40,750 nt of DNA from Candidatus Rokuibacteriota bacterium (lineage in GTDB: Bacteria > Methylomirabilota > Methylomirabilia > Rokubacteriales > CSP1-6). Within the stretch, counting starts at the first letter, position 1, and each line of letters opens with the position of its first letter. Made by a program: the position numbers and the translations under genes. The notes under the pieces were generated by a model that was not told where the DNA came from, did no database searches, and worked only from the letters and a program-made list of their open reading frames with translations. Of this stretch, positions 1 to 5,785 are shown one piece after another. The DNA lies in contig QHSP01000090.1 of the NCBI GenBank assembly GCA_003220495.1, forward strand, positions 1 through 40,750, in the 5' to 3' direction.

Positions 1-1732
1 CCTCGTCCATCAGATGACGGGCGATCTGCGCCAGCAAAACGGGATCGTCGTGCACGACCGACACGGTGTCGCCAGCGCCGACCTCGGCGGCGGTCGTCTG
101 GCGCGCCCATTTCCTCACGGCCTCCTCCAGCGCCTGACGGACGCCGGCGTCGGCCCCGGCCCGCATCAGCCCGCCGAAGCCCTGGACGTCGCCCGTGAGG
201 ATACAGAGGGCGCGCGTCGTGACGGCGCGGTCTTCGCTCGGTGTCCCTCGCCACCCGCGGCCATAACCCACGATATCGACCCGGTCGATACGAGCGAGAT
301 ACCCTGGGCTCAGGCGACCGATCACGTCCGACAGCACGGGGTGCACGAGGTAGCGGCTCGCGCGCGGCAGCACGCCGTCGGGCTCGAGCGTGCCCTCGCC
401 CGGGCGCAGGAATCGCTGGACCCAGTCGCCTCTGACCAGGTCGTGGTGGAGATGGCCGAGGAGACCGACGCGGTAGAGCGCGCAGAACACGTGCCGCTCG
501 TCGACGGCGGCGCCCTCGAGGCGGTGGTTCTGGAACAGCTCTTCGACCTCGTCGCGCGTGAGAATGTGCCCCGGAATGCGCCCGAGGAACCGCTCCAGGT
601 CGAGGTCGCCGACGTACGGGGCGATCTCGGTGAGATACTCGCGCGCGATCTCGGTCGCCCCGAGGTTCACCGCCTCCTTCACGCGGTGCTCATGGCGCCG
701 CTCGTCGGGCCGCAGCGCCGCGAGCCGTTCGCCGATGGTCATCAGATCTCGCGGCCGCAGCAACGTGTGCCGGCACACGTAGTCGAAGGCGTCTTCCTCC
801 TCGCCGGTGTAGACGTGGCTGATCTTCGTGCGGCCGAGGAACGCCTCGATCGGATCCGCGCGCAGCCGTCCAGGCCGGACCATCCGGTCCGACTTCTCCA
901 GGCGGATGTTGTTCACGAAGATCTCGCGCAGGCTCTCGACCGGATAGACGATGTCGACCGCGCTGCCGCGATACTGCTGGGACATGACGGTCGTCTGCAG
1001 GCGCGCGTACGCTTCCTTGCGGACAGCGGCGAAGACCTTCAGGTGGTGGTTGATGCGGCGGAGCTGGTAGGCGACCTCGACGAGCCCCAGCTGGGCGAAG
1101 TACCATATGCTCGGCGACAGCGGACCGGTGACGCTCGGCAGGCTGGCGCGGCTCTCGATGTGCTTGTTGAAGTACTCGTCGACGCCGTCGATGAAGATCG
1201 CGACCGGCGAGCTGACCGCGCGCAGCCGCGGCAGGAGATGTCCGTCGGTGTCGGCGGCGGCGCGCTGCAGCTCGCTGGGCGTGAAATCGAGGAGCCGGAC
1301 GAAATGGTCGATCACGCCGTGAAGGCGCTCGTCGGTCATCAGGCCGGTCAGCTTCGCCGTCACCCGGAGGCCGTCGGCCCGGCCGAGGTGCTTGAGCGCC
1401 GTCGCGGCGATCGCCGTGAGCCAGAGCTTCGACCAGGGCAGGGACGACGCGGCGAAGAAGGCGAGCGCGTCCTTGCTGAAGACCTTGTCGCCGATCGGCT
1501 TGTCGAGGAGATTGCCGGTCGGCAGGCAGGCCGCCCGTCCGTCGCGCTGGTAGAGGATGCGCTTGGCCTTGAGGAGGAGCGTCTTGCCGAAGCCCTTCGT
1601 CCCGATCACGATGAACTTGTCATCGCGATCGAGATTCAGGAAGCTGTCGATCTCCGGCGTATGGTGCAGGAGAGCGTCGTCGAAATCTTCGGCGACGCGA
1701 ATGTCGTCGGCGTCCACGGTCCACGCGCGCAT
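1..1732 (-). CDS. STAND-like P-loop ATPase (Sll1717 type) fused to a cyclase-fold domain, partial
   Basis: The minus frame is open from ATG at 1732 (GGAG five bases upstream) to the window edge, so the C-terminus is missing. About 577 residues are visible. Residues 44-51 read GTKGFGKT, a Walker A loop. Near residue 178 FIDGVDEYF is a Walker B of the STAND type (DGxDE). Further on, FAAVRKEAY and a LRPRDLM segment match what I recall of P-loop ATPases of the Sll1717 family, followed by a winged-helix-like stretch. From about residue 515, ALCILTGDVQGF and later VGAGDTVSVV look like the first strand and the beta hairpin of a class III nucleotidyl cyclase homology domain, each with a candidate metal-binding Asp. 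STAND-type architecture suggests a ligand- or damage-sensing switch. The cyclase assignment is by motif only and activity is unproven. Confidence 0.75.
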   Translation of the reverse strand, partial: MRAWTVDADDIRVAEDFDDALLHHTPEIDSFLNLDRDDKFIVIGTKGFGKTLLLKAKRILYQRDGRAACLPTGNLLDKPIGDKVFSKDALAFFAASSLPWSKLWLTAIAATALKHLGRADGLRVTAKLTGLMTDERLHGVIDHFVRLLDFTPSELQRAAADTDGHLLPRLRAVSSPVAIFIDGVDEYFNKHIESRASLPSVTGPLSPSIWYFAQLGLVEVAYQLRRINHHLKVFAAVRKEAYARLQTTVMSQQYRGSAVDIVYPVESLREIFVNNIRLEKSDRMVRPGRLRADPIEAFLGRTKISHVYTGEEEDAFDYVCRHTLLRPRDLMTIGERLAALRPDERRHEHRVKEAVNLGATEIAREYLTEIAPYVGDLDLERFLGRIPGHILTRDEVEELFQNHRLEGAAVDERHVFCALYRVGLLGHLHHDLVRGDWVQRFLRPGEGTLEPDGVLPRASRYLVHPVLSDVIGRLSPGYLARIDRVDIVGYGRGWRGTPSEDRAVTTRALCILTGDVQGFGGLMRAGADAGVRQALEEAVRKWARQTTAAEVGAGDTVSVVHDDPVLLAQIARHLMDE

Positions 1733-2622: not shown

Positions 2623-3564
2623 CTAGCGCGCAGCGGCCGGCGGACGATTGCGCGTGACGGCGTCGGGGTGAGTCGAATCGGCCCCCATGTAAATGCCTTT
2701 GTCCCACGTCCGCTTGAGCGGATCGCGCACGTCGAGTCGCATGCGCCCGATGCCGTGGATCTCGAAATCCACGACCTCGCCGTCCTGCAGCGGCCCGAGC
2801 CCCTCGTGATTCGTGCCGCACGCGATGAGATCGCCGGAGTTGAGCGTCATGATCGTCGTCGCGAACTCGACGAGCTCAGGCACCAGGTGCTCCATGTCGT
2901 CGGTGTTGTAGTTGTGGCGCAGCTGACCATCCACCCAGAACTGCACGTGGACATCGTTGGGATTCGGGATCTCGTCGATCGTGGCGATGCACGGCCCGAT
3001 CGGCGCGAACGTGTCGAACGATTTCCCGAGCCAGCTGCCGGTCTTCCACGTCCGCCGACCTTCACCGCGCGCCGACACGTCGATCATGCCGGTGTAGCCG
3101 AAGACGGCGGTGCGCCAGTTGTCGCGCTTCACCGATTTCGCCGGGCCCTTGATGACCAGCGCCAGCTCGGCCTCGTGCATGAAAATCCAGGGCTCGGTGA
3201 ACTCCGGCAGCACGATCGTGTCGCCCGGGCCGATCACCGCGTCCGAGCTCTTGAGGAACATGTTGAGCGGCCGGGCTTCGAGGGCTCCGTGCTCCCAGTA
3301 GTTCGCGATGCACGCGAGGATCTTGCCCGGCCGCGGAAGCGGCGCGCGCAGCCGGACGTCGGCGAACGGCAGCACCTTGCCGTCGCGCGCCAGCCGCTCG
3401 AGCGCCGGACGCAGGCGGTCGAAGTTGTCGATGACCCCGGTCATCGTCGCCGTGGGCGTCGCGCCCGCGGGGACCGCGTCGGCGATGCTCACCACTCCTC
3501 GGTCGGTGAAGAGTCCGGGCAGGAGCTCGGGCTTCCCAGCGATCTGAAACGTGACCAGCTTCAC
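2623..3564 (-). CDS. Fumarylacetoacetate hydrolase (FAH) family protein
   Basis: This 313-residue protein starts at GTG (3564) behind AGGAGGG. The N-terminal part resembles the small FAH-like cap domain. The second half holds the FAH catalytic barrel: FMHEAELALVIKG carries the E-x-E metal pair, followed by the GYTGMIDVSARGEGR and SFDTFAPIGPCI segments and a LNSGDLIACGT strand near the C-terminus. FAH-fold enzymes hydrolyse, hydrate or decarboxylate 2-oxo acid intermediates using Mg2+, often late in meta-cleavage of aromatics. It is transcribed divergently from the VOC/amidohydrolase operon from a near-consensus promoter, so the two may serve one catabolic route. That link is inference. Confidence 0.87.
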   Translation of the reverse strand: MKLVTFQIAGKPELLPGLFTDRGVVSIADAVPAGATPTATMTGVIDNFDRLRPALERLARDGKVLPFADVRLRAPLPRPGKILACIANYWEHGALEARPLNMFLKSSDAVIGPGDTIVLPEFTEPWIFMHEAELALVIKGPAKSVKRDNWRTAVFGYTGMIDVSARGEGRRTWKTGSWLGKSFDTFAPIGPCIATIDEIPNPNDVHVQFWVDGQLRHNYNTDDMEHLVPELVEFATTIMTLNSGDLIACGTNHEGLGPLQDGEVVDFEIHGIGRMRLDVRDPLKRTWDKGIYMGADSTHPDAVTRNRPPAAAR

Positions 3565-3630
3565 GATGCCCTCCTCGTTCCCCAGTGAGATACCCCGTGC
3601 AGGACGCGGTCACCGGCCTCGGCGCGCGCA

Positions 3631-3659
3631 GACATAGCGCCGGCCGCGACCAGTGTCAA
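3631..3659 (-). promoter_or_regulatory. Sigma-70-like promoter for the FAH gene
   Basis: On the minus strand TTGACA (3659-3654), 17 bases, then TATGTC (3636-3631) form a near-consensus promoter 67 bases before the GTG start of the FAH gene. On the opposite strand TGTAGACT (3675-3682) could be the -10 of the divergent operon, so the two promoters would overlap back to back. Confidence 0.6.
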
Positions 3660-3746
3660 GCGCCACATATTCGCTGTAGACTGTGCCCTCGGCGAGGCGT
3701 TCAACCCAGGCGAGGAGGGCGAGGAGAACAGGGAGGAGGGCTGAAG

Positions 3747-4100
3747 ATGGTCAGGGCCAACGGGATCGACCATATCGTGCTGCATGTCACTGATGTGGCG
3801 CGGGCGAAGAAGTTCTACACCGAGGTCCTGGGCATGACGGTCTACCGAGAGAGCGACCGCCAGGCCTTTCTGCACGCCGGCCCGCAGGGGGTGGCCCTCT
3901 TCGAAAAGCAGGGAGACACCCCCCTGGCAGCGGGTAACGATCTCAACCACCTGGCCCTGAGCGTGGCCGCCGGCACCTACGAAACGCTCAAGGCCGATCT
4001 GGAGAGCTACGGCGTGAAGGTGAGCGGCCGCCCTGGAGAGGACCGGTGCATCTACTTTAGCGACCCCGACGGGCACCGCTTGCAATTGATGGTGCGCTGA
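3747..4100 (+). CDS. VOC family protein (glyoxalase/dioxygenase fold)
   Basis: The chosen ATG at 3747 has GGGAGGAGG just upstream and gives a 117-residue protein. The open frame extends further 5' but that part is not protein-like. Two beta-alpha-beta-beta-beta modules are visible: one starts at IDHIVLHVTD, the second at LNHLALSV and ends with YFSDPDGHRLQLMV. The usual VOC metal triad would be His, His, Glu. Here both His are present but the last ligand is Gln (in RLQLMV). VOC proteins include extradiol dioxygenases, glyoxalases and antibiotic-binding proteins. It heads an operon with an amidohydrolase (24-bp gap) and a second VOC gene, which suggests catabolism of an aromatic or related compound. 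Confidence 0.85.
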   Translation: MVRANGIDHIVLHVTDVARAKKFYTEVLGMTVYRESDRQAFLHAGPQGVALFEKQGDTPLAAGNDLNHLALSVAAGTYETLKADLESYGVKVSGRPGEDRCIYFSDPDGHRLQLMVR

Positions 4101-4124
4101 GAGAGCTGACCGAAGGAGGGGGCC

Positions 4125-5270
4125 ATGAGAGACGGCCTGCGCGCGTGGGACGCTGATACGCACGTCAATCCTGCCGCCGAAGTCCTCGAGCGGTACGTCG
4201 ATCCGAGCTTCCGACCCCGGCTGCCCGAGCTTGCGGCGCACCGGCACGCGACAGGCCAGATCGGGGGCACGCCCGGGACCCATCAGTACCGTGTGGGCAC
4301 GAAGTTCTATCGGCGGATCCTCGGCGAGGCGACCGCTCACGAGACTTTCACCGGAAGAGGCACCAACTGGAGGGGGACGAGACAGCCGAGAGCAGGGGTG
4401 CAAGACGATCTGGCCGAGAACCGCATCAAGGACATGGACGACGAGGGCACCGACGCGCATCTGCTGATCCCGACGTCCTGGGTGAGCGTCGTGGGCCTGC
4501 CGGATGTCGAGCTCGAGATCGGGTTGATTCGCGCCTACCACCGCCACGCGGCCGACTTCTGCGGACAGTTTCCGGCGCGTCTCAAGACGATGATCGTCGC
4601 CTCGACGCGCTCGGTCGACGAGGCCGTGAGCGAGATCCGCAAGTGGGGGACGTCCAAGTGGGCGGTTGCGGTCTGGCCCCTGCTCGCCAAGGACATGCCC
4701 GTAGATCATCCTGACCTGGAGCCCATCTGGAAGGCAGCCCAGGAACACGACCTGGCGGTCATGCATCACAGCCTGACCTGGAATCCCCCGTATTTCCCCG
4801 GCTACCAGGATCTCTGGGACAACATCTTCCTGGGCCGCCTCGCCTCCCACCCGTGGGGTGGCATGCGGTTCATGGCCGCCTTCATCGGCGCGGGGATCAT
4901 GGACCGCTACCCCAGCCTTCGCATGGGCATCCTCGAATGTGGCTCTGGCTGGCTCCCGTTCTGGGCCAAGCGCATGGACGAGCAAGCCGTGTACGTCGGA
5001 GGCGTGGCGCCTCTCAAGCATGCCCCGAGCGAGTACATGACCAGCGGGCGCTTCTTCTGCAGCATCGAGCAGCACGAGGGCGAGGACATGTACAACTACG
5101 TCCGCAGCGTCCTCGGCGACGACGTCCTCATGTACGCCTCGGACTATCCCCACTCGGAGTGCCAGTTCCCGAACTCGGTGGACAACATCCTGAAGTGGAA
5201 GAGCCTCAACCCGGACACGAAGAAAAAGCTCCTGTGGGACAATGCGGCGAGGTTCTACAAGCAGACTTGA
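4125..5270 (+). CDS. Amidohydrolase family protein (amidohydrolase-2 / decarboxylase-like)
   Basis: This 381-residue metal-dependent hydrolase starts at ATG 4125 with AAGGAGG upstream. Near the N-terminus DADTHV (residues 9-14) supplies the D-x-H metal site. LAVMHHSLTW gives the His on the next strand. A conserved DRYPSLRMGILECGSGWLPFW block and the YASDYPHSE motif, with the terminal catalytic Asp, are typical of the amidohydrolase-2 group. That group includes ACMSD, gamma-resorcylate and 5-carboxyvanillate decarboxylases. The product is probably a zinc or manganese enzyme that decarboxylates or hydrates an aromatic ring or muconate-type substrate in the cytoplasm. Flanking VOC genes support a role in the same pathway. 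The exact substrate is unknown. Confidence 0.88.
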   Translation: MRDGLRAWDADTHVNPAAEVLERYVDPSFRPRLPELAAHRHATGQIGGTPGTHQYRVGTKFYRRILGEATAHETFTGRGTNWRGTRQPRAGVQDDLAENRIKDMDDEGTDAHLLIPTSWVSVVGLPDVELEIGLIRAYHRHAADFCGQFPARLKTMIVASTRSVDEAVSEIRKWGTSKWAVAVWPLLAKDMPVDHPDLEPIWKAAQEHDLAVMHHSLTWNPPYFPGYQDLWDNIFLGRLASHPWGGMRFMAAFIGAGIMDRYPSLRMGILECGSGWLPFWAKRMDEQAVYVGGVAPLKHAPSEYMTSGRFFCSIEQHEGEDMYNYVRSVLGDDVLMYASDYPHSECQFPNSVDNILKWKSLNPDTKKKLLWDNAARFYKQT

Positions 5271-5278
5271 GGTGAGAT

Positions 5279-5785
5279 ATGCCTGAGATCAGCGGGTTGG
5301 GACACGTGGGCCTCTTCTGCAACGACCTGCCGAAGATGCGGAGCTTCTACGCCCGGATCCTCGGTCTCACGATCAGCGACGAGGACATGGCGCGCGGCAT
5401 CTGTTTCCTGAGCGCCGCCCCCGACGCCGAGCACCATGAGCTGGCTCTGGTGCAGGCCAAGGAGCCCGGACAGAAGACGCACAACGTCCAGCAGGTGTCG
5501 TTCAAGGTGAAGACGCTGGACGACGTGCGTGCGTTTTACCATCGGCTGCAGCAGGAGGGCATGAAGATCGACCGCACGGTCACCCATGGGATCGCCTGCA
5601 GCGTCTACTTCTACGATCCCGAAGACAACCGGGTCGAGCTCTACTACACGACTCCGTACAAGGTGCGTCAGCCGTTCGGCGAGCACATCGATCTGGACGA
5701 GCCCGACGCCAAGCTGCTGGCCTTCGCGCAGTCGTTCGAGGAGAAGAAGGGGCCGCCTCGCGGCGCGCAGCAGCCGGTGGCGTGA
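5279..5785 (+). CDS. VOC family protein (second copy in operon)
   Basis: This 168-residue protein starts nine bases after the amidohydrolase stop, so it is co-transcribed. The first VOC module begins GLGHVGLFCNDL with the expected His. The second begins VQQVSFKVKTL, where the normal His ligand position is Gln. The last strand NRVELYY keeps the Glu. The C-terminus has an extra 45-residue tail rich in charged residues. Homologues act as extradiol dioxygenases or glyoxalase-like lyases. The missing His is the mirror image of the upstream VOC protein, which lacks the Glu. The two may complement each other or act as non-canonical metal sites. Activity is not predictable from sequence alone. Confidence 0.85.
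   Translation: MPEISGLGHVGLFCNDLPKMRSFYARILGLTISDEDMARGICFLSAAPDAEHHELALVQAKEPGQKTHNVQQVSFKVKTLDDVRAFYHRLQQEGMKIDRTVTHGIACSVYFYDPEDNRVELYYTTPYKVRQPFGEHIDLDEPDAKLLAFAQSFEEKKGPPRGAQQPVA

Follow-up and report, generated by a model that had tools for sequence, protein, structure and literature searches.

An Sll1717-type P-loop ATPase fused to a class III cyclase homology domain with altered base-selecting residues in a soil bacterium (Candidatus Rokuibacteriota)

We describe a protein in which a P-loop ATPase of the Sll1717 type is followed, in a single polypeptide, by a C-terminal class III nucleotidyl cyclase homology domain with a conserved metal-binding side and a changed base-selecting side. 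The combination of an Sll1717 ATPase with a residue-altered cyclase domain of this kind is new, while the pairing of STAND NTPases with cyclases is as such already known. As the cyclase domain stands where relatives of the protein carry TIR, SEFIR or kinase domains, the architecture points to a putative role in alarm-type signalling or in defence.

The gene was found in Candidatus Rokuibacteriota bacterium (soil; GCA_003220495.1, contig QHSP01000090.1), at the beginning of the 40,750 nt stretch of DNA that was analysed as a whole (henceforth ‘the window’). It is encoded on the minus strand with its ATG at position 1732, and is truncated by the contig edge. The missing C-terminus was recovered from another contig of the same genome (C67, 7308 bases), the last 74 bases of which are exactly the first 74 of the window; joined at this overlap, the two contigs yield an open reading frame of 682 aa (the full protein) that ends in a TGA stop codon (L002:1184). 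We consider the join credible because 23 other assemblies, some of them from the same genus, hold the gene uninterrupted through its stop codon. At the level of the window the gene is delimited as follows:

1..1732, minus strand: ATPase-cyclase-homology gene, residues 1-577 of 682 (open reading frame; the rest lies on C67, up to the TGA at L002:1184)
1..74, no strand: 74 bp that exactly match the end of C67, where the missing C-terminus lies (sequence identity)

The N-terminal part (residues 7-468) matches the NCBIfam model NF047389 (‘P-loop ATPase, Sll1717 family’) with 84.4 bits (E 9.1e-24), a score that exceeds the curated cut-off of 75 bits and covers most of the model (positions 5-451 of 454), by which the protein belongs to the family. 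The Walker A and B motifs of an Sll1717-like ATPase, anticipated by the original prediction, are both present:

329..1714, minus strand: Sll1717-type P-loop ATPase region, residues 7-468 (NF047389, E 9.1e-24)
1580..1603, minus strand: Walker A, residues 44-51, GTKGFGKT (all 25 proteins share K50 and T51)
1169..1207, minus strand: Walker B, residues 176-188 (PVAIFIDGVDEYF; D182, D185 and E186 in all 24 proteins having the segment)
746..757, minus strand: RPRD motif at residues 326-329 (no variation within the family)
413..556, minus strand: possible winged-helix segment, about residues 393-440 (helix-helix-strand-strand in the model, at moderate confidence)

The two Walker motifs (the core of the second reads AIFIDGVDE) and the RPRD motif are invariant in all family proteins that have the respective segment. 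The winged-helix-like middle that had also been proposed finds partial support, in that the expected order of helices and strands is modelled there with moderate confidence. Pfam matches to the ATPase part were sub-threshold (AAA_16/ORC-CDC6-like), the distant member L113 matched AAA_16 with E 4e-4, and the ATPase part of the full-length model is at low confidence, so that the ATPase can be taken as a likely, putative member of the STAND proteins proper.

The cyclase homology domain covers approximately residues 505-682, with D515 as the first metal Asp. Searches of the C-terminus as a single sequence (Pfam and PDB) returned weak matches or none (Guanylate_cyc, E 0.03-0.19, in Pfam), and a profile built from 23 relatives matched 19 PDB sequences, every one of them a class III nucleotidyl cyclase or the holoenzyme of one; 3et6 scored best (E 9.6e-6). 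The structural model of the domain (mean pLDDT 87.6, >90 over most of model residues 21-160) aligned with Rv1264 (1y11) at Z 20.8 and 2.5 A over 164 residues, as well as with Rv1900c, CYG12 (3et6) and Ma1120 (Z 19-20), and the full-length model yielded the same fold matches. The cyclase fold that had been predicted to begin near residue 515 is thus found by profile and by structure alike, with a start some ten residues earlier:

1..220, minus strand: class III cyclase homology domain, 5' part, residues 505-577 (profile and structure matches; the domain extends to residue 682 on C67)
188..190, minus strand: Asp515, equivalent of the first metal-binding Asp (invariant, 25 of 25)
68..70, minus strand: Asp555, equivalent of the second metal-binding Asp (invariant, 25 of 25)

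Active-site residues were assigned by aligning the profile with 3et6 and tallied across 25 proteins. Asp515 and Asp555 (both candidate metal ligands are therefore borne out), the catalytic Arg620, His592, Glu622 and Lys665 are kept in all 25, including the distant relative L110 (genome G475, L110:1429-3702), which has 32% identity over 673 aligned positions, the same two-domain layout and, at its C-terminus, an added segment of recombinase type (PF07508, E 2e-4). At the first base-selecting position (551) we find V, T, I, L, A or H and at the second (609) I or V (P in L110), and the position of the transition-state Asn (616) holds Leu in 22 proteins, Ala in two and Arg in one (L110). Positions 551/609 hence hold no canonical adenylyl or guanylyl pair (Lys/Asp or Glu/Cys-type), and the canonical Asn-Arg pair is reduced to its Arg (25/25), so that half of the six canonical catalytic positions carry other residues. 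Since the substitutions affect the base-selecting pair (Lys and Asp) together with the transition-state Asn, the synthesis of cAMP or cGMP is not to be assumed. The absence of the Asn does not by itself imply a dead enzyme, as Ma1120, which has Ala at this position and keeps the Arg, is an active adenylyl cyclase, the activity of which was lowered by introducing an Asn (PMC4215837). A retained metal side and Arg, together with a changed base side, argue for a domain that would still bind metal-nucleotide and whose chemistry may be altered or lost; it may bind nucleotides instead of converting them. Both parts of the protein are under purifying selection, given that dN/dS among close relatives is ~0.08-0.17 in the cyclase domain and ~0.07-0.16 in the remainder.

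Our main ground for seeing an output in the cyclase domain is that the ATPase core carries other domains at this place in relatives. In one gene (L026:7001-8932; 47% identity with the contiguous copy L004 across the aligned part) a TIR_2 domain (Pfam E 4e-14) takes the cyclase position, in a Butyrivibrio plasmid (L112) the Sll1717 ATPase (E 1e-37) is followed by SEFIR (E 1e-6), and in a genome from the family of the window (L042:208-2058) an Sll1717-like core precedes a Ser/Thr kinase (E 2e-53). These replacements suggest that the cyclase domain occupies an exchangeable output slot of the ATPase. The cyclase-type output put forward by the original prediction is accordingly plausible, though the replaced base-selecting Lys/Asp and Asn do not allow a cAMP or cGMP product to be presumed.

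The reading we prefer, though tentatively and at slightly less than an even chance, is that of a stand-alone single-gene switch, in which a triggered ATPase would dimerise the cyclase-homology domains and the ensuing NTP turnover would serve as an alarm or growth-arrest output. Its computed basis consists of the two-domain architecture, the conservation of both nucleotide-binding cores, the purifying selection, the replacements in the slot and a sporadic, partnerless occurrence; what we infer beyond it is an assembly driven by ATP, a catalytic cyclase domain, its product, a trigger and a part in defence (conflict). The Sll1717-type (STAND/ORC-like) ATPase would be held off until a trigger is sensed, the binding of which would release it for nucleotide exchange and ATP-dependent self-assembly, and in the assembled state the C-terminal cyclase-homology domains would pair up as a dimer. 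Class III cyclases form their active sites at the dimer interface. The dimer would then turn over NTP; the product, most likely a nucleotide that is cyclic or modified in some other way, could act as a signal or through toxicity, giving the alarm or growth-arrest output. A more specific version, which we regard as doubtful, is a single-gene immune switch with a class III cyclase-type effector (exchangeable with TIR in otherwise equivalent proteins) which, its base-selecting and transition-state residues being changed, would make a nucleotide signal other than cAMP/cGMP or deplete NTPs once the ATPase is triggered; it is the module swapping only that would suggest a role in phage defence. Should the cyclase-homology domain prove to be an enzyme under regulation, the protein would be a compact one-gene sensor-effector bearing a class III cyclase domain where a sister protein has TIR, its unusual active site would point to a product other than cAMP or cGMP, and the uncharacterised Sll1717 ATPase family could be assigned the function of an exchangeable switch module.

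The best rival, which we hold to be rather unlikely, sees in the cyclase-homology domain a non-catalytic binder of nucleotide or metal-nucleotide that senses NTP or a cyclic nucleotide, or dimerises, and so regulates the ATPase as the real output. The replacement of half of the canonical catalytic positions speaks in its favour, as does the description of inactive cNMP cyclase domains, perhaps serving in nucleotide binding only, in NTP-dependent conflict systems (Kaur et al. 2020; PMC7159879). A mere scaffold, however, would have no need of the metal Asp pair and catalytic Arg that are invariant even at 32% identity, and the slot is filled in relatives by domains of enzyme families (TIR, kinase).

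The switch reading can also be set against known systems. With open frames of ~470-570 aa, many members of the NF047389 family leave no room for a cyclase domain, whereas the protein described here has one appended. With the class III cyclases (Rv1264, Rv1900c, Ma1120 and CYG12) it has in common the fold, the metal Asp pair and the catalytic Arg; it differs from them in its base-selecting positions (Lys to V/I/T, Asp to I/V), in its ~20% identity and in the ATPase to which it is fused. Human soluble adenylyl cyclase pairs a STAND-type NTPase with cyclase domains. Like Ma1120, our protein lacks the transition-state Asn (PMC4215837). The conflict systems described by Kaur et al. use cNMP cyclases, some of them inactive, as output (PMC7159879, PMC8195603), and the iSTAND2/VMAP systems are described as combining a STAND-type NTPase and a cNMP cyclase domain, either within one protein or within one system (PMC8195603, PMC7159879). 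The pairing that the original prediction had not seen described is known, then, from other NTPase families and is not new as a category; the literature searched contains no paper naming Sll1717. The STAND-cyclase systems resemble the present protein in joining a switch NTPase to a cNMP cyclase domain, and are distinguished from it by the NTPase family, by its order (ATPase first, cyclase last) and by its being a single gene without accessory genes. Furthermore, the PycC cyclase of Pycsar shares with our protein a class III fold, a pair of metal Asp and base-selecting residues that depart from the standard ones (PMC11224242); in contrast to Pycsar, the ATPase is in cis, no PycTM/PycTIR effector gene is adjacent (28 loci) and there is no PADLOC match (PADLOC-DB 2.0.0, L004 and L023, E up to 1).

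The surroundings of the gene hold mostly metabolic genes, and no neighbour is conserved across 28 loci or shared outside the source genus. Effector genes, for which the original prediction had proposed to check the upstream neighbours, did not appear: no conserved effector or receptor neighbour was found across the loci examined. Among 59 neighbours four PADLOC families were matched, without pattern, and no defence-island context was found. Within the source genus the gene lies, in opposite direction, between thioesterase-like and LLM-class oxidoreductase-like genes (named by eye). In two genomes without the gene the same slot contains a PhyH-like dioxygenase ORF (G048, L080:3050-3925) or its remnant (G051, L079:3892-4163); G054 has a run of N there. 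The lack of a recurring neighbour and the PhyH-like occupants of the slot point to a self-sufficient unit that is gained and lost, without proving that it is mobile.

Occurrence is sporadic: the gene is present in five of nine genomes of the source genus and in 6/301 of one Burkholderiales family. Relatives (62-92% identity, full length) come from Rokubacteria, Burkholderiales, one Acetobacteraceae MAG, and Binatota and ‘Deltaproteobacteria’ MAGs, and the tree places the window protein with Rokubacteria, which is no proof of transfer. Plasmid matches were confined to distant ATPases. Another alternative is an ordinary regulatory cyclase outside defence, in which the ATPase/winged-helix part would sense metabolic or redox state and set a cyclic nucleotide level for a CRP-like receptor encoded elsewhere, as in STAND-containing soluble cyclases. 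Consistent with it are the single NF047389 locus in each of the 15 genomes tested (in two pieces in G097), the metabolic neighbourhoods without defence island and the absence of any related gene from the phage collection and viral contigs searched. We nevertheless judge it improbable, as patchiness within one genus and swapping with TIR/SEFIR fit conflict modules better and the ATP/GTP-selecting residues are absent. An artefact of assembly or binning, as could be supposed of a window that begins within the gene and has the C-terminus on a separate contig, has a negligible probability as the origin of the fusion, and an assembly chimera is ruled out, since the identical arrangement is contiguous in the 23 independent assemblies, which represent several phyla.

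Several further loci deserve mention. Three copies are decaying or misassembled, of which L010:16-1944 misses ~40 aa including Walker B, L025:378-1925 goes out of frame close to the cyclase part and L039 is left as two short fragments. The TIR-bearing gene of L026 has an MFS-like transporter ORF directly downstream, and the N-terminal part of the kinase-bearing L042 is broken by an unresolved base. Proteins of ~880 aa (L102, L103, L105 and L106; NCBIfam match run on L102) have two P-loop domains, namely an N-terminal ParA-like ATPase with a KGGVGR variant and then an Sll1717 ATPase, and in a further group of Sll1717 ATPases (L082, L084 and L085) the N-terminal stretch resembles, by eye, a nucleoside-deoxyribosyltransferase/TIR-like fold; L082 and L084 had no Pfam match. 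In the window itself, genes next to the LLM oxidoreductase (2623-5785) encode a hydrolase of the FAH type, an amidohydrolase and two proteins that are glyoxalase/dioxygenase-like (names by eye), and they probably form a catabolic cluster.
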